From positions 6,775,501 through 6,839,500 of the forward strand of contig NZ_JACHJC010000001.1 in assembly GCF_014203425.1 (NCBI RefSeq): 64,000 bases of DNA, given 5' to 3'. The DNA comes from Micromonospora echinospora (GTDB taxonomy: Bacteria > Actinomycetota > Actinomycetes > Mycobacteriales > Micromonosporaceae). Of this stretch, positions 51,281 through 61,387 are shown one piece after another. Both the position numbers and the translations under genes were made by a program. The stretch's first letter is position 1, and each line of letters opens with the position of its first letter. The notes beneath the pieces were generated by a model. The model was not told the origin of the DNA, ran no database searches, and was given only the letters and a program-made list of their open reading frames with translations.

Positions 51281-51354
51281 GGTGTCGCCCCCGGCACAAC
51301 CGGCTCCGGGCGGTCAGGCTTGATCCCCTCCGCCGGTTGCGCCGGGGCGACACC
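51281..51354. repeat. Conserved-loop inverted repeat, copy 1
   Basis: Arms 51281-51304 and 51332-51354 pair over about 22 bp with one bulge and one mismatch. They hold a 27-nt loop whose core CGGGCGGTCAGGCTTGATCC is identical to that of the element at 61316-61387, although the stems differ. It lies between convergent genes (binding lipoprotein and permease), so it can act as a terminator; the invariant loop implies a further role. Confidence 0.75.
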
Positions 51355-51431
51355 TTTCGTGGTCGGCCGCAATCCGTGGGTTGAGGTTTCCCTCTGGGTT
51401 CTCGGTCGACGACGGGTCTTCGGGTCAGTGG

Positions 51432-52265
51432 TCAGCGGGCTGAGGTGGTGGCCCGGACCCAGGGCAGGGCCAGGCGCTCGATGAAACTCAGAGCGGCGTA
51501 GAGCACGATGCTCATCAGGGCCACCAGCACGATCGCGGCCCAGGCGGTGGCGGTGTCGCCGACGCCGTTGTACTGCAGGATCTGGTAGCCCAGGCCGGGA
51601 CGATCCGAATAGAACTCACCGATCACCGCGCCGATCGCGGCCAGCGGCATGGCCACCTTGAGCCCGACGAAGATCTGCGGCAACGCGGACGGGAAGCGCA
51701 CCTTGCGGAACGACTGCCACCACGAGGCGTTCAGCGACCGGCCCAGCTCCGCCAGGTCCGCCGGAGTGGTGGTCAGGCCGGTGGCGGTGGAGAGCACGAT
51801 CGGGAAGAAGCAGAGCAGGAACACCATGGTCAGGATGGGTTTCTGACCCCAGCCGACGGCCACCACCAGCAGCGGCCCGAACGCGATCTTCGGGACCGCG
51901 TTCACGGCCACCAGCAGCGGCGCGAACATCCGCTCCACCCGGCGGGACGCGGCCAGCGCCATCCCGATCAGCACCCCGGCGGCCGACGAGAGCAGGAAGC
52001 CGAACAGGGTAGTCCAGGTGGTGATGCCCAACGCGGGCAGCAGCACGCCGGTGGTGTTCGCGAGGGACTTCCCCACCGCCTGCGGCGGCGGCAGCGCGGC
52101 CGGGTGCACCAGGTTCAGCCCCGAGGTGACCAGCCACCAGGCGGCCACCGTGATCAGCAGGCCGAGCGCCGGCAGCCCGACCGCGGCCGGACGTACGGCG
52201 AACCCGCGCCGGACCACCGGGCGCGGTTGCGGCGCCTCCGGCCGGGCCTCGGTCAACTGTGTCAA
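51432..52265 (-). CDS. ABC transporter permease (SsuC/TauC/ThiX family)
   Basis: A 277-residue permease with six helices (GLPALGLLITVAAWWLVTSGL first) and the coupling motif LGRSLNASWWQSFRKVRFPSALPQIFVGLKVAMPLAAIGAVIGEF (about 165-210). The family carries sulfonates, taurine, nitrate, aliphatic amides or thiamine pyrimidines. Start is TTG 52265, with GGAGG upstream. It lies 102 nt after the binding-protein gene, while the ATPase is encoded divergently at 53683. Confidence 0.88.
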   Translation of the reverse strand: MTQLTEARPEAPQPRPVVRRGFAVRPAAVGLPALGLLITVAAWWLVTSGLNLVHPAALPPPQAVGKSLANTTGVLLPALGITTWTTLFGFLLSSAAGVLIGMALAASRRVERMFAPLLVAVNAVPKIAFGPLLVVAVGWGQKPILTMVFLLCFFPIVLSTATGLTTTPADLAELGRSLNASWWQSFRKVRFPSALPQIFVGLKVAMPLAAIGAVIGEFYSDRPGLGYQILQYNGVGDTATAWAAIVLVALMSIVLYAALSFIERLALPWVRATTSAR

Positions 52266-52367
52266 CGTGTCCTCCTCTCTGCGCCGGTCGGTGCGACCGG
52301 CACGGGAAGGGGGTGCGCCCCACCGGGTGTCCGGCGGGTCGCACCCCCGTTGGCCCGAGCGGACCGG

Positions 52368-53396
52368 TCAGGCCTTCGGCGCGAGGTTGAAGTCGATGAT
52401 CTGGTCCGGGGTGAGGTCCTGCTTGAGCGCGCCCGCGCCCTTCAGCAGCGCGATGCTCTTGGCCACCCGGCCGCTGTCCAGCGTGCCGATTGCGGTGCCG
52501 GAGTTGCTCGACCGGACGTACGCGGCCATCAGCTGAAGCTCGGCGGAGGCTGCGGCCGGGACGGCGGCCGGCACGTTCTTCTTCAGGATCTCGGCGGCCT
52601 CGTCCGGGTGGGCCAGCGAGTACTCCAGGCCCTTGAGCAGCGCGGCGGTGAACTTCTTCACCATCTCCGGCTTCTCCTTGGCGAGCTTCGTGGAGGTGAT
52701 CAGCGCGTTGCCGTAGAGGTCCTGCATCACGTTGCTGTACGGCAGGACGACCGGCTTCTTCTTGGTCACCGTCTCCACCGTCGGCTGGCCGACGACGAAC
52801 TGGCCGATGCCGTCCACCGAGCCGGAGCCCAGCATGGGCATCAGGCTCTGCGCCTCACCGTTGACCCAGGTCACCTTGCTGCCGTCGATTCCGGCGAGCC
52901 GTGCGTACGTGGGGAAGAGGTTACGCACGACGGAGCTGGGGGTGTCGGCGAGCTTCTTGCCCTCGAGGTCCTTCGGGGTGGCGATGTTCTTGCCCTCGAC
53001 CGTGACGATCGCGGCCATGGTGCGCTGCTGGATCGCGGCCACCGCCACGAAGTCCTTCGCCTGGCCGTTGCCGAGCTGGAGGATGCCACCGGTCAGGTCG
53101 ATCGGGCCGAACTGGGCCTGGCCGCCGGTGATGGTCTGGATGACGGAGCCAGTGCCCTGGCCGGGCTTGATGTCGACGTCGAAGCCGGCCTCCTTGAAGA
53201 AGCCCTTGTCCTTCGCCACCCAGGCGTAGGAGTCACGGCCGAAGTTGCCGAATGAGGTGAGGTACGTCACCTTTTCCAGCGCCGCGCCGTTGCCGCCGCC
53301 GCTCTCGGACTTGTCCGAGTCGCTGCTGCAGCCGCCCACGAGGGCGAGGGCGGTCGCCAGAGCCGCGGCGGCGACCGTACGGGTCAGCCTTCTCAT
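52368..53396 (-). CDS. NMT1/THI5-like ABC substrate-binding lipoprotein
   Basis: A 342-residue lipoprotein: signal sequence with lipobox LVGGC (Cys about 23), followed by a type II binding fold of the NMT1/THI5/SsuA group (VTYLTSFGNFGRDSYAWVAKDKGFFKEAGFDVDIKPGQGTGSVIQTITGGQAQFG). The family includes binding proteins for thiamine pyrimidine precursors (ThiY), sulfonates and others. The nearby thiamine operon makes a pyrimidine plausible, but no ligand residue proves it. ATG 53396 starts the signal peptide. Convergent or adjacent partners: permease downstream, ATPase divergent. Confidence 0.85.
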   Translation of the reverse strand: MRRLTRTVAAAALATALALVGGCSSDSDKSESGGGNGAALEKVTYLTSFGNFGRDSYAWVAKDKGFFKEAGFDVDIKPGQGTGSVIQTITGGQAQFGPIDLTGGILQLGNGQAKDFVAVAAIQQRTMAAIVTVEGKNIATPKDLEGKKLADTPSSVVRNLFPTYARLAGIDGSKVTWVNGEAQSLMPMLGSGSVDGIGQFVVGQPTVETVTKKKPVVLPYSNVMQDLYGNALITSTKLAKEKPEMVKKFTAALLKGLEYSLAHPDEAAEILKKNVPAAVPAAASAELQLMAAYVRSSNSGTAIGTLDSGRVAKSIALLKGAGALKQDLTPDQIIDFNLAPKA

Positions 53397-60483: not shown

Positions 60484-60500
60484 GACAGCCTCCCTGTCGC

Positions 60501-61289
60501 TCATGCGGACCAGCCGAAGTGGTCCAGCGGGCCGCGTCCCGCGCCCAGCTCCCAGCCCTGCGCGCCGGTCAGCGCGCGGGTGACGTACTCCTTGGCGGCC
60601 GCCACCGCGACCGGCACCGCGTCGCCGGCGGCGAGCCGGACCGCGACGGCGGCCGAGAACGAGCAGCCGGTGCCGTGGTTGTGCCGGGTGTCCACCCGGG
60701 GCGCGCGCAGCAGCCGCGTGGTCCCGCCGCCGGACAGCACGTCCACCGACTCGCCGTCGGCGTCCACGTCGCCGCCCGTCACCACCACGAACGCCGGGCC
60801 GCGCGCCGCCAGCGCCTCGGCCGCCGCCACCATCTCCTCGACCGTGCCCACCGGGCCTCCGGTGAGGGCGGCGGCCTCCGCGCAGTTCGGCGTCGCCACC
60901 TCCGCGTACGGCAGCAGCCGCTCGACCGCCTCGACCACGCCGAGCCGGTGCCCACTGGTGGCGACCAGTACCGGATCGACGACCAGGTGCGGCAGCCGCC
61001 CGGCCCGGGCCGCCTCGGCCACCGCGTCGGCGACCGCCGGGGTGCCGAGCATCCCGGTCTTCACGGCCCGGACGTCGAAGTCGCCGAGCACGCTGTCCAT
61101 CTGGTCGCGGACGGTCTGCGGCGGCAGCGGCAGCACGGCGTCCACGCCCCGCGTGCTCTGCGCGGTGACGGCGGTGAGCACGCTCGTGCCGTACGCCCCG
61201 AGCGCGGCGAACGTCTTGAGGTCGGCCTGGATGCCTGCTCCTGCTCCGGAGTCGGACCCTGCCACGGTGAGAACTGTTTTCGGCGTCAC
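60501..61289 (-). CDS. thiD: HMP/HMP-phosphate kinase ThiD
   Basis: A 262-residue ribokinase-fold kinase phosphorylating HMP then [45 protein letters not shown] at the start, [13 protein letters not shown], and the anion-hole/catalytic [21 protein letters not shown]. Length is normal for a single-function ThiD. It follows thiE after a hairpin region (61316-61387), and its TGA overlaps a thiC ATG. Confidence 0.95.
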
Positions 61290-61315
61290 GTGTCTTCTCC
61301 GGTGGTTGCGGTTGA

Positions 61316-61387
61316 GGGCTGCGGCCGACCGTGCCCACTCCGGGCGGTCAGGCTTGATCCCTCCGTGGTCACGGTCGGCCGCAGCCC
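61316..61387. repeat. Conserved-loop inverted repeat, copy 2 (thiE 3' end)
   Basis: Perfect 18-bp arms 61316-61333 and 61370-61387, extended inward by CCAC/GTGG (61335-61338, 61365-61368), hold a 26-nt loop (61339-61364) whose core CGGGCGGTCAGGCTTGATCC is the same as in the element at 51281-51354. The right arm encodes the last ThiE residues and its stop. In the minus-strand transcript the loop has the same orientation after thiE as the other copy has after the permease gene. Confidence 0.75.

Follow-up and report, generated by a model that had tools for sequence, protein, structure and literature searches.

The DNA analysed, referred to below as the window, is a stretch of 64,000 nt from the forward strand of Micromonospora echinospora (GCF_014203425.1, NZ_JACHJC010000001.1, positions 6,775,501 to 6,839,500). 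It contains two long hairpins, elements 1 and 2, each carrying a constant 20-nt core within its loop. Their components and the adjacent genes are listed in Table 1. Both hairpins are present where the earlier note had placed them, at 51281–51354 and 61316–61387 (the latter measured here as 61315–61388), and the extra C it reported in one loop belongs to element 1. Element 1 lies between convergent genes. It had been described as downstream of an NMT1/THI5-type permease gene, but the plus-strand Peripla_BP_6 gene is closer. Moreover, the NMT1/THI5 domain (PF09084) belongs to a binding protein, and the permease that adjoins element 1 is of the BPD_transp_1 type. The second hairpin had been assigned to the thiE stop, and the stop codon indeed sits in the right arm of element 2. 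The thi genes of the window are antisense to the core of this element.

Table 1. Positions in the window of the two hairpin elements, their parts and the neighbouring genes.
Feature	Position	Strand	Description	Basis
Peripla_BP_6 substrate-binding protein gene	50089..51270	+	stop ~10 nt before element 1	Pfam
Element 1, whole	51281..51354		loop 27 nt with additional C
Element 1, left stem arm	51281..51304	+	24 nt
Element 1, constant 20-nt core GGGCGGTCAGGCTTGATCCC	51308..51327	+	within 27-nt loop
Element 1, right stem arm	51332..51354	+	23 nt
ABC permease gene, BPD_transp_1	51432..52265	-	convergent; stop ~78 nt from element 1	Pfam
NMT1/THI5 (PF09084) binding protein gene	52368-53396			Pfam
thiD (Phos_pyr_kin)	60501..61289	-	start ~25 nt from element 2
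Element 2, whole	61315..61388		arms 24 nt each, complementarity 96%, 26 nt in between
Element 2, left stem arm	61315..61338	+	24 nt
Element 2, constant 20-nt core	61342..61361	+	within 26-nt loop
Element 2, right stem arm	61365..61388	+	24 nt; contains thiE stop codon
thiE (TMP-TENI)	61369..62010	-	3' end within element 2

Folded as RNA, element 1 forms 23 pairs with a bulge of one base. On the minus strand the folding z-score is −6.4 for element 1 and −7.6 for element 2, on the plus strand −5.8 and −7.6, and none of the shuffled sequences was equally stable. A covariance model of the family matches element 1 at 51282–51353 with 69.2 bits and element 2 at 61317–61386 with 82.1 bits; the former was outside the training set and the latter inside it. 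Members of the family have an outer stem of about 22–26 bp; beyond a small internal loop sits the apical module, a bulged inner hairpin, GGGC-GGTCA-GGCT-TGATC-CCT.

A 17-nt version of the core is expected 0.27 times in the window with up to three mismatches, and was found twice exactly and once with three mismatches. In the complete 7.13 Mb genome the 20-nt core has five exact copies and three hits with three mismatches, while the reversed-pattern control gave none. These controls rule out a chance origin of the repeated core. All five exact copies are enclosed by long stems, with 24–25 pairs in four of them, and the three hits with mismatches lack this architecture. The earlier note had suggested this search, and held that flanks mostly without complementarity, or a total of two copies, would speak against its reading; neither was seen, and complementary flanks were found at five of five exact copies. 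We also looked for a gene for a trans-acting RNA carrying the exact core or its complement, and there is none in the genome outside the five elements; the three hits with three mismatches remain.

The loop is nearly constant while the stems drift. Watson–Crick pairing reaches 14 or more of 20 positions in 259 of the 272 distinct copies, and the 13 poorly paired ones include five from Trueperella and one from genome G516, with stem bulges that are missed by the rigid register. Covariance analysis, which the earlier note had proposed, gave a covariation score of 0.696 in 36 diverse copies, compared with at most 0.154 when the arms were slid by 1–3 columns; this set was chosen at 16 or more of 20 pairs, so that its percentage of pairing is biased. 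A register control shifted by five columns had 47.5% paired and a score of 0.189. Two of the five pair measures fail to beat column shuffles, namely two-sided pair changes (69/500) and further pair types (110/500). At the orthologous cdd-deoA site the exact core is present in 61 of 66 in-register copies, and the pairwise difference per site is 0.009 in the core, against 0.176 and 0.167 in the arms. A pair change has occurred within the apical hairpin itself, from TCA-GGCT-TGA to TGA-GGCT-TCA in Trueperella and G516. On these alignments the apical module is nearly invariant while the outer stem covaries, and loop and pairing both look to be under selection. The pairing, the covariation score and the rates at cdd-deoA thus back the original inference that structure and loop are both selected. 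The earlier note had offered as an alternative a mobile loop with a preference for hairpins. This is not favoured, since by eye the stems from separate loci of one genome are visibly related; whole hairpins therefore seem to spread and then to drift.

The core was found in 142 of 160 Micromonospora genomes (the remaining 18 scored zero), with no hits for the reversed control. Within the Micromonosporaceae, 18 of 44 genera have copies, where the reversed control gave eight hits. Copy number ranges from 0 to 31 per genome. Among the matches listed, distant Actinomycetes, Trueperella bonasi for one, also have copies, with a patchy occurrence; the carrier groups in that list are the Micromonosporaceae, the family of Trueperella and two others. 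The 20-nt core is kept across Actinomycete orders, and the covariance model, which was built without Actinomycetaceae, recovers a copy in all 17 Actinomycetaceae loci supplied (E = 2.8e-10 to 0.021). Dispersal through genome, genus, family and distant Actinomycetes agrees with the suggestion of the earlier note that this is an interspersed hairpin element. A viral, phage or plasmid source was dropped, as IMG/VR gave no exact match, phage sequences no match, and plasmids weak partial stem matches on eight records only (best E = 0.02).

Of 56 distinct sites of the element, 35 lie between convergent genes, 21 between tandem genes and none between divergent genes, compared with 38, 242 and 143 background gaps respectively, counts that include duplicates; genes outside the window were predicted with a home-made codon-usage caller. 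Counted per copy, 15 of 223 were called divergent, and 13 of these are in gaps of at least 700 nt, where gene calls are unreliable. The stop codon of the gene on the core strand precedes the element by a median of 17 nt (48 sites), and that gene is the nearer one at 31 of the 35 convergent sites. At tandem sites the core is sense in 13 and antisense in eight (p = 0.38), i.e. there is no orientation bias. As judged from these gene predictions, the elements are mostly just downstream of stop codons and recur at many loci. The neighbouring proteins fall into 161 clusters, and the ten named by Pfam are functionally unrelated, so control of a single pathway was rejected.

The element corresponds to no known RNA family that we could find. 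Rfam 15 gave no match at the gathering score over the whole window. With a permissive threshold, applied to element 1 and one Trueperella locus, nothing on the hairpins rose above gathering, and the sub-threshold matches there were mostly to microRNA families. Literature searches returned nothing on point; 14-nt pieces of the core matched solely a paper on silkworm microRNA, in such text as was accessible, and the motif was not found in the accessible part of a survey of structured RNA (PMC2864571).

The most likely interpretation is a REP-like hairpin at the 3' ends of genes, with a constant apical module that would be read by a putative factor. We put the probability at roughly 0.45 that both hairpins of the window are copies of a dispersed extragenic element of Actinomycetes that is transcribed 3' of genes and has a factor-read apical module. 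The element would be transcribed as the 3' end, or as an intercistronic part, of the mRNA of the preceding gene. A trans-acting factor, perhaps a protein or ribonuclease, would recognise the apical module and either block 3'–5' decay or set the end of the transcript. The outer stem would merely stay double-stranded and present the module, and as it need only remain paired its sequence would be free to drift. Whole hairpins would occasionally be copied, spreading the element, and it would be lost by deletion.

There are precedents for parts of this design. In the iron-responsive element a stem with few sequence requirements bears a bulge and a constant loop, and the histone mRNA 3' stem-loop is located at mRNA 3' ends. 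Our element resembles the first in its apical module and the second in its position. Unlike these, it is bacterial, has no known binding protein and lies beside named genes of unrelated function.

A less probable alternative is that the complementary strand is the folded form. It would fold either in an antisense or convergent transcript, which would stop at the hairpin shortly before reaching the neighbouring gene's 3' end and so make the element an antisense insulator, or as single-stranded DNA during spread. The stem mismatches speak for it. Distinct mismatches on the core strand include 44 A.C and only six G.T, or 76 of C-type and 19 of G-type, and the excess of A.C keeps its sign in each of the four gene configurations. 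If a sense RNA were selected, the opposite mismatches would be expected, so the excess counts against a simple sense-RNA reading; the core-strand flanks, rich in G and T, would also predict the opposite absent selection. Among the 104 cases with mismatched arms, 68 give the better fold on the complementary strand and 19 on the core strand. The strong enrichment between convergent genes would fit this alternative, and rpoB-rpoC tolerates copies whose core is in sense (loci L052 and L163). Yet the asymmetry is found mostly within 10 bp of the loop (A.C:G.T of 37:4, against 7:4 farther out), and a base-specific contact could also produce it. Furthermore the invariant G.U pairs of the apical hairpin lie on the core strand, and folding of the entire element favours that strand by a mean of 1.4 kcal/mol (180 copies). 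For two operons, thiE-thiD and rpoB-rpoC of G516, the sense strand is the complementary one. In the 120 nt flanking the stem at each end, no position exceeds 0.12 bits, and hence no fixed antisense promoter is visible. Some words are enriched in the flanks at variable position, GGTTGC in 49 of 243 5' flanks (11.8 in shuffles) and GTGGTC in 34 of 239 3' flanks (9.1); with these loose words alone enriched, defined ends of the element beyond the stem were rejected.

Still less probable is a largely selfish palindrome, REP- or MITE-like, moved by a putative enzyme that recognises the apical module, with the position at gene ends reflecting tolerance rather than function. As described in the accessible part of PMC3733652, REPs are palindromes dispersed between genes, chiefly downstream of them where neighbouring genes run in one direction or converge, and they are often paired or grouped; those associated with RAYT transposases (REP/BIME) have GTAG or CGTC tags and stems of 6–13 bp, with loops of 2–5 nt in many families and longer in some. 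Our element is likewise extragenic and downstream of genes, with no divergent site. It differs in having stems mostly of 22–26 bp and free sequence, a nearly invariant apical core of ~20 nt and no end tag that we could see. Moreover, the REP-associated Y1 transposase (PF01797) is absent from nine of the 12 carriers tested, the M. echinospora genome included, as well as from 12 of 12 non-carriers, and the copy number of 0–31 per genome is a further difference. Identity with RAYT/REP was rejected on the transposase, stem length and tag.

The distribution would fit such a mobile palindrome. Genome G457 has 16 copies, with related stems at separate loci and tandem copies, and its 10 congeners have none. 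In the T. bonasi family group, six genomes out of 200 have the element, and its presence in the genera of its own family is patchy. A search for a partner gene, covering PF01797, found none. Sites such as cdd-deoA are common to the genus, and the thi and cdd loci inspected had no clean insertions, only losses that resemble deletions, so movement is rare there. At the arfB locus of G457, comparison with empty sites revealed no clean insertion junction; some congeners have unrelated hairpins there and others lack hairpins. Strong conservation of the core in old, vertically kept copies is not what would be expected of inert relics. The element is not essential, since it is often lost: the exact 13-nt inner core is retained at the cdd site in 65 of 117 parsed genomes, and the core at the thi site in 11 of 30 loci.

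The elements share with intrinsic terminators a stable GC-rich hairpin soon after a stop codon, and differ in their conserved 20-nt loop, their presence within operons and the near-universal absence of a U-tract. Of 266 copies, two have TTTT within 12 nt after the stem on the core strand and one has it on the other, and with the copies inside rpoB-rpoC this makes a plain strong terminator unlikely. A scan for intrinsic terminators, which admits loops of 3–8 only and is therefore ill suited to these hairpins, found no site at the elements. That these are ordinary terminators whose loop is common by chance or recent duplication is very improbable. In its favour would be the location past stop codons and in convergent gaps, the other long hairpins found at arfB in some G457 congeners, the TTTCG and TCTCG that follow elements 1 and 2, and T-runs on one or other strand of a few Actinomycetaceae copies (e.g. 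the second copy of locus L376). Against it, the T content of the core strand past the hairpin, 0.21, is close to the flank mean of 0.20, and the core is conserved across orders.

Returning to the proposed factor-read hairpin at 3' ends, a specific partner is strongly suggested by a 20-nt sequence that is near letter-perfect across orders and set in stems whose pairs have been replaced one by one. We tentatively suggest, from comparative sequence data, that this may be a bacterial 3'-end signal of new design, in which a near-invariant, factor-read apical module is carried on drifting stems, scattered horizontally over Actinomycete orders and spread within genomes as whole hairpins, with a putative dedicated partner that reads the RNA or the complementary single strand. 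The family constitutes a natural experiment, with a single constant loop, hundreds of diverging stems around it and many losses at known sites. Identifying the partner would uncover either a novel means by which actinomycetes finish, protect or insulate their transcripts or a new kind of mobile palindrome.

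The two hairpins of the window described in the earlier note, with different stems and a near-constant loop that carries an extra C in one of them, were both found (elements 1 and 2, table). They have in common the loop string TCC-GGGCGGTCAGGCTTGATCCC-TCC. The note placed one hairpin at the thiE stop, and this codon does indeed lie within an arm of the copy in the thiE-thiD gap. The genome-wide search that it proposed for the constant 20-nt core, with a check of flank pairing, gave five exact copies in the 7.13 Mb genome of M. echinospora, all five within long stems. The long-stem form was not seen at three core matches with three mismatches.

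With up to one mismatch the core is present in 142 of 160 genomes of the genus, M. echinospora counted, against none for a reversed control. Allowing two mismatches it is present in 203 of 354 genomes of the family and 18 of 44 genera, at 0 to 31 copies per genome; the reversed control of this search gave eight matches in total. Carriers among the matches listed (named contigs, 80 of at least 120 stretches) are Micromonospora, Verrucosispora, Actinoplanes, Amorphoplanes, Plantactinospora, Catenuloplanes, Hamadaea, Pseudosporangium, Nucisporomicrobium and Trueperella bonasi, the last belonging to the order Actinomycetales. Two genomes were positive with up to one mismatch in a class sample of 394, of which 391 come from outside the family: G457, with 16 copies, and G516. 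The core is absent from all ten congeners of G457. The sequence GGGCGGTSAGGCTTSATCCC (up to one mismatch) occurs in 6 of 200 genomes of the T. bonasi family group, T. bonasi counted, and the variant GGGCGGTGAGGCTTCATCCC, in which the middle pair of the inner hairpin is exchanged from C-G to G-C, is carried by T. bonasi, G516 and one additional genome. A covariance model run over 296 class genomes found no carrier beyond those found by the plain core. The hairpin family was not found in IMG/VR or in the phage set, and plasmids gave no convincing match to it.

A search with the exact inner core recovered 272 distinct copies. In 259 of them, 14 or more of the 20 positions adjoining the loop form Watson-Crick pairs. 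We examined covariation in 36 copies with diverse arms, drawn from 214 that share a register and have 16 or more pairs. These align without gaps, and 97.2% of cells are paired, a percentage that is biased because the copies were selected on pairing; 295 cells are changed on both sides and the covariation score is 0.696. When the arms were slid by 1-3 columns the values were at most 55.7%, 82 cells and 0.154. Two of five pairing measures (pairs with double change, and further pair types) were not above column shuffles. Covariance modelling was called for in the earlier note; the model, built with Actinomycetaceae left out, found a copy in all 17 loci supplied from that family (E = 2.8e-10 to 0.021). 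Four of the 21 Actinomycetaceae loci (L306, L372, L375 and L379) were not supplied; L372 has the core with one mismatch, and its hairpin was not recovered by the pattern used. For the second copy of L305 the model recovered a core fragment only (E = 0.057). It found the copy in L298 of G516, and none in four loci of G457 congeners.

A single orthologous site, the cdd-deoA gap, was compared in 130 of the 160 genomes, 117 being readable and 13 not parsed. The exact 13-nt inner core is present in 65 of the 117. Copies with up to four core substitutions number 70, of which 66 are in register and four were set aside; the core is exact in 61 of the 66. On average, two copies differ by 0.009 per site in the core, against 0.176 (left) and 0.167 (right) in the arms, and paired changes are seen at several positions. 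We conclude, with a probability of about 0.95, that this is a real and widely dispersed hairpin family, in which two separate constraints act, one keeping the apical core near-invariant, the other keeping the stem paired while its sequence drifts freely.

The core is missing in 19 of 30 cases at the thi site, and in several cases of loss there and at the cdd site a remnant of one arm persists, resembling deletion. Four species that lack the element at the thi site (L145, L148, L149 and L156) have another hairpin, GCTGGTCGGGCCG...CGGCCCGACCAGC, between thiE and thiD, as though the gap called for some hairpin irrespective of its loop. Some congeners have long hairpins unrelated to the family at the arfB site of G457, so gaps of this type often hold some hairpin. 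The copying unit seems to be the whole hairpin, since stems at different loci of one genome are related, judged by eye, and tandem copies are present in G457. The arrays in G457 (L162-L174, L307-L312) comprise 2-3 elements spaced by ~73-170 bp, with locus-specific flanks, and some lie at contig ends.

Other hairpins also recur. One, GAAGGGCCCCTT-...-AAGGGNCCCTTC, has a loop with TTAACGCCTC or a near variant (complement GAGGCGTTAA); its single copy in the window is imperfect. Another has the stem GATCAAGGAGTTTG and a similar loop, TTGATCTCCRATACRCC, and is close to the DUF3097-site element. The palindrome GTTGACATGTCA...TGACATGTCAAC, variable at its centre, is possibly an operator, and the GATCGCGCTCGATCC hairpins constitute another dispersed family.

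Coordinates of the window elements and of other recurring hairpins (L, locus handles)
Feature	Location	Remark
Element 1	window 51281-51354	hairpin; loop with one C more than element 2
Element 2	window 61315-61388	hairpin at thiE-thiD
GAAGGGCCCCTT-...-AAGGGNCCCTTC hairpin	window 92-139; L041 7822-7877; L208 6188-6244; L240 1037-1088	
GATCAAGGAGTTTG hairpin	L041 3872-3930; L043 3908-3968	
GTTGACATGTCA...TGACATGTCAAC palindrome	L040 7590-7638; L060 311-360; L278 1143-1196; L280 6288-6338	
GATCGCGCTCGATCC hairpins	L059 5659-5697; L213 1827-1902; L231 7003-7076	

Sorting the 266 copies with 13 or more pairs by the neighbor genes they share gave 103 groups. The genomic context could be used in 56 of them (home-made gene calls, gap <700 nt). 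These are convergent in 35 cases and divergent in none; in the tandem groups the core is in sense in 13 and antisense in 8, without significant bias (p = 0.38). Element-free gaps of 80-700 nt in the same loci are tandem in 242, convergent in 38 and divergent in 143 cases. The stop codon of the gene on the strand carrying the core (the core strand) precedes the stem by a median of 17 nt (48 sites). At convergent sites the stop of the opposite gene lies at a median of 123 nt, and the core-strand gene is the closer in 31 of 35. Three copies each occupy an rpoB-rpoC gap, two in sense and one in antisense; elsewhere, copies separate cdd from the pyrimidine-nucleoside phosphorylase gene and thiE from thiD. 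Flank conservation exceeded 0.12 bits at no position. In T. bonasi (L183 2960-3145) the element stops ~16 nt short of a TPP riboswitch (61.1 bits), which belongs to an operon resembling, by eye, a thiamine-transporter operon. A thiamine neighbor is thus seen twice, here and at the thi copy of the window, possibly by coincidence.

Which strand folds was approached through stem mismatches, each distinct one counted once over 18 stem positions of the 214 copies, the events being partly dependent on one another. On the core strand A.C outnumbers G.T by 44 to 6, and mismatches containing C outnumber those containing G by 76 to 19. The sign of A.C:G.T is the same in all gene contexts (convergent 22:4, tandem-sense 19:1, tandem-antisense 7:1, divergent 2:0); by position, in a slightly larger copy set, the bias lies mostly at 2-10 (37:4, against 7:4 at 11-19). 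A.C on the core strand is G.U on its complement, and therefore pairing looks better kept on the complementary strand. The folded form that counts could then be that strand, acting as an antisense insulator or as ssDNA. We consider this rather unlikely; the mismatch bias could also arise from a base-specific contact close to the loop, and the invariant G.U pairs of the apical hairpin are on the core strand, so that the evidence on strand is divided.

That the family is mainly a selfish palindrome is improbable too. A REP of the RAYT kind was rejected, as three of 12 carriers and none of 12 non-carriers have the Y1 transposase (PF01797), which is absent from the M. echinospora genome. Ordinary terminators are very improbable. 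Hardly any copy has a U-tract: of 266 copies, two show TTTT within 12 nt on the core strand and one on the opposite strand, and the T content after the stem is 0.21 on the core strand against a flank mean of 0.20; the terminator scan admits loops of 3-8 only, and is hence blind to these hairpins.

Rfam gave no match at the gathering score, and at a permissive threshold the hairpins of element 1 and one Trueperella locus gave sub-threshold matches only. A literature search, with most subscription papers outside its coverage, found no description of the family. We tentatively favor the reading that these are 3'-end or intercistronic hairpins recognized by a putative factor.
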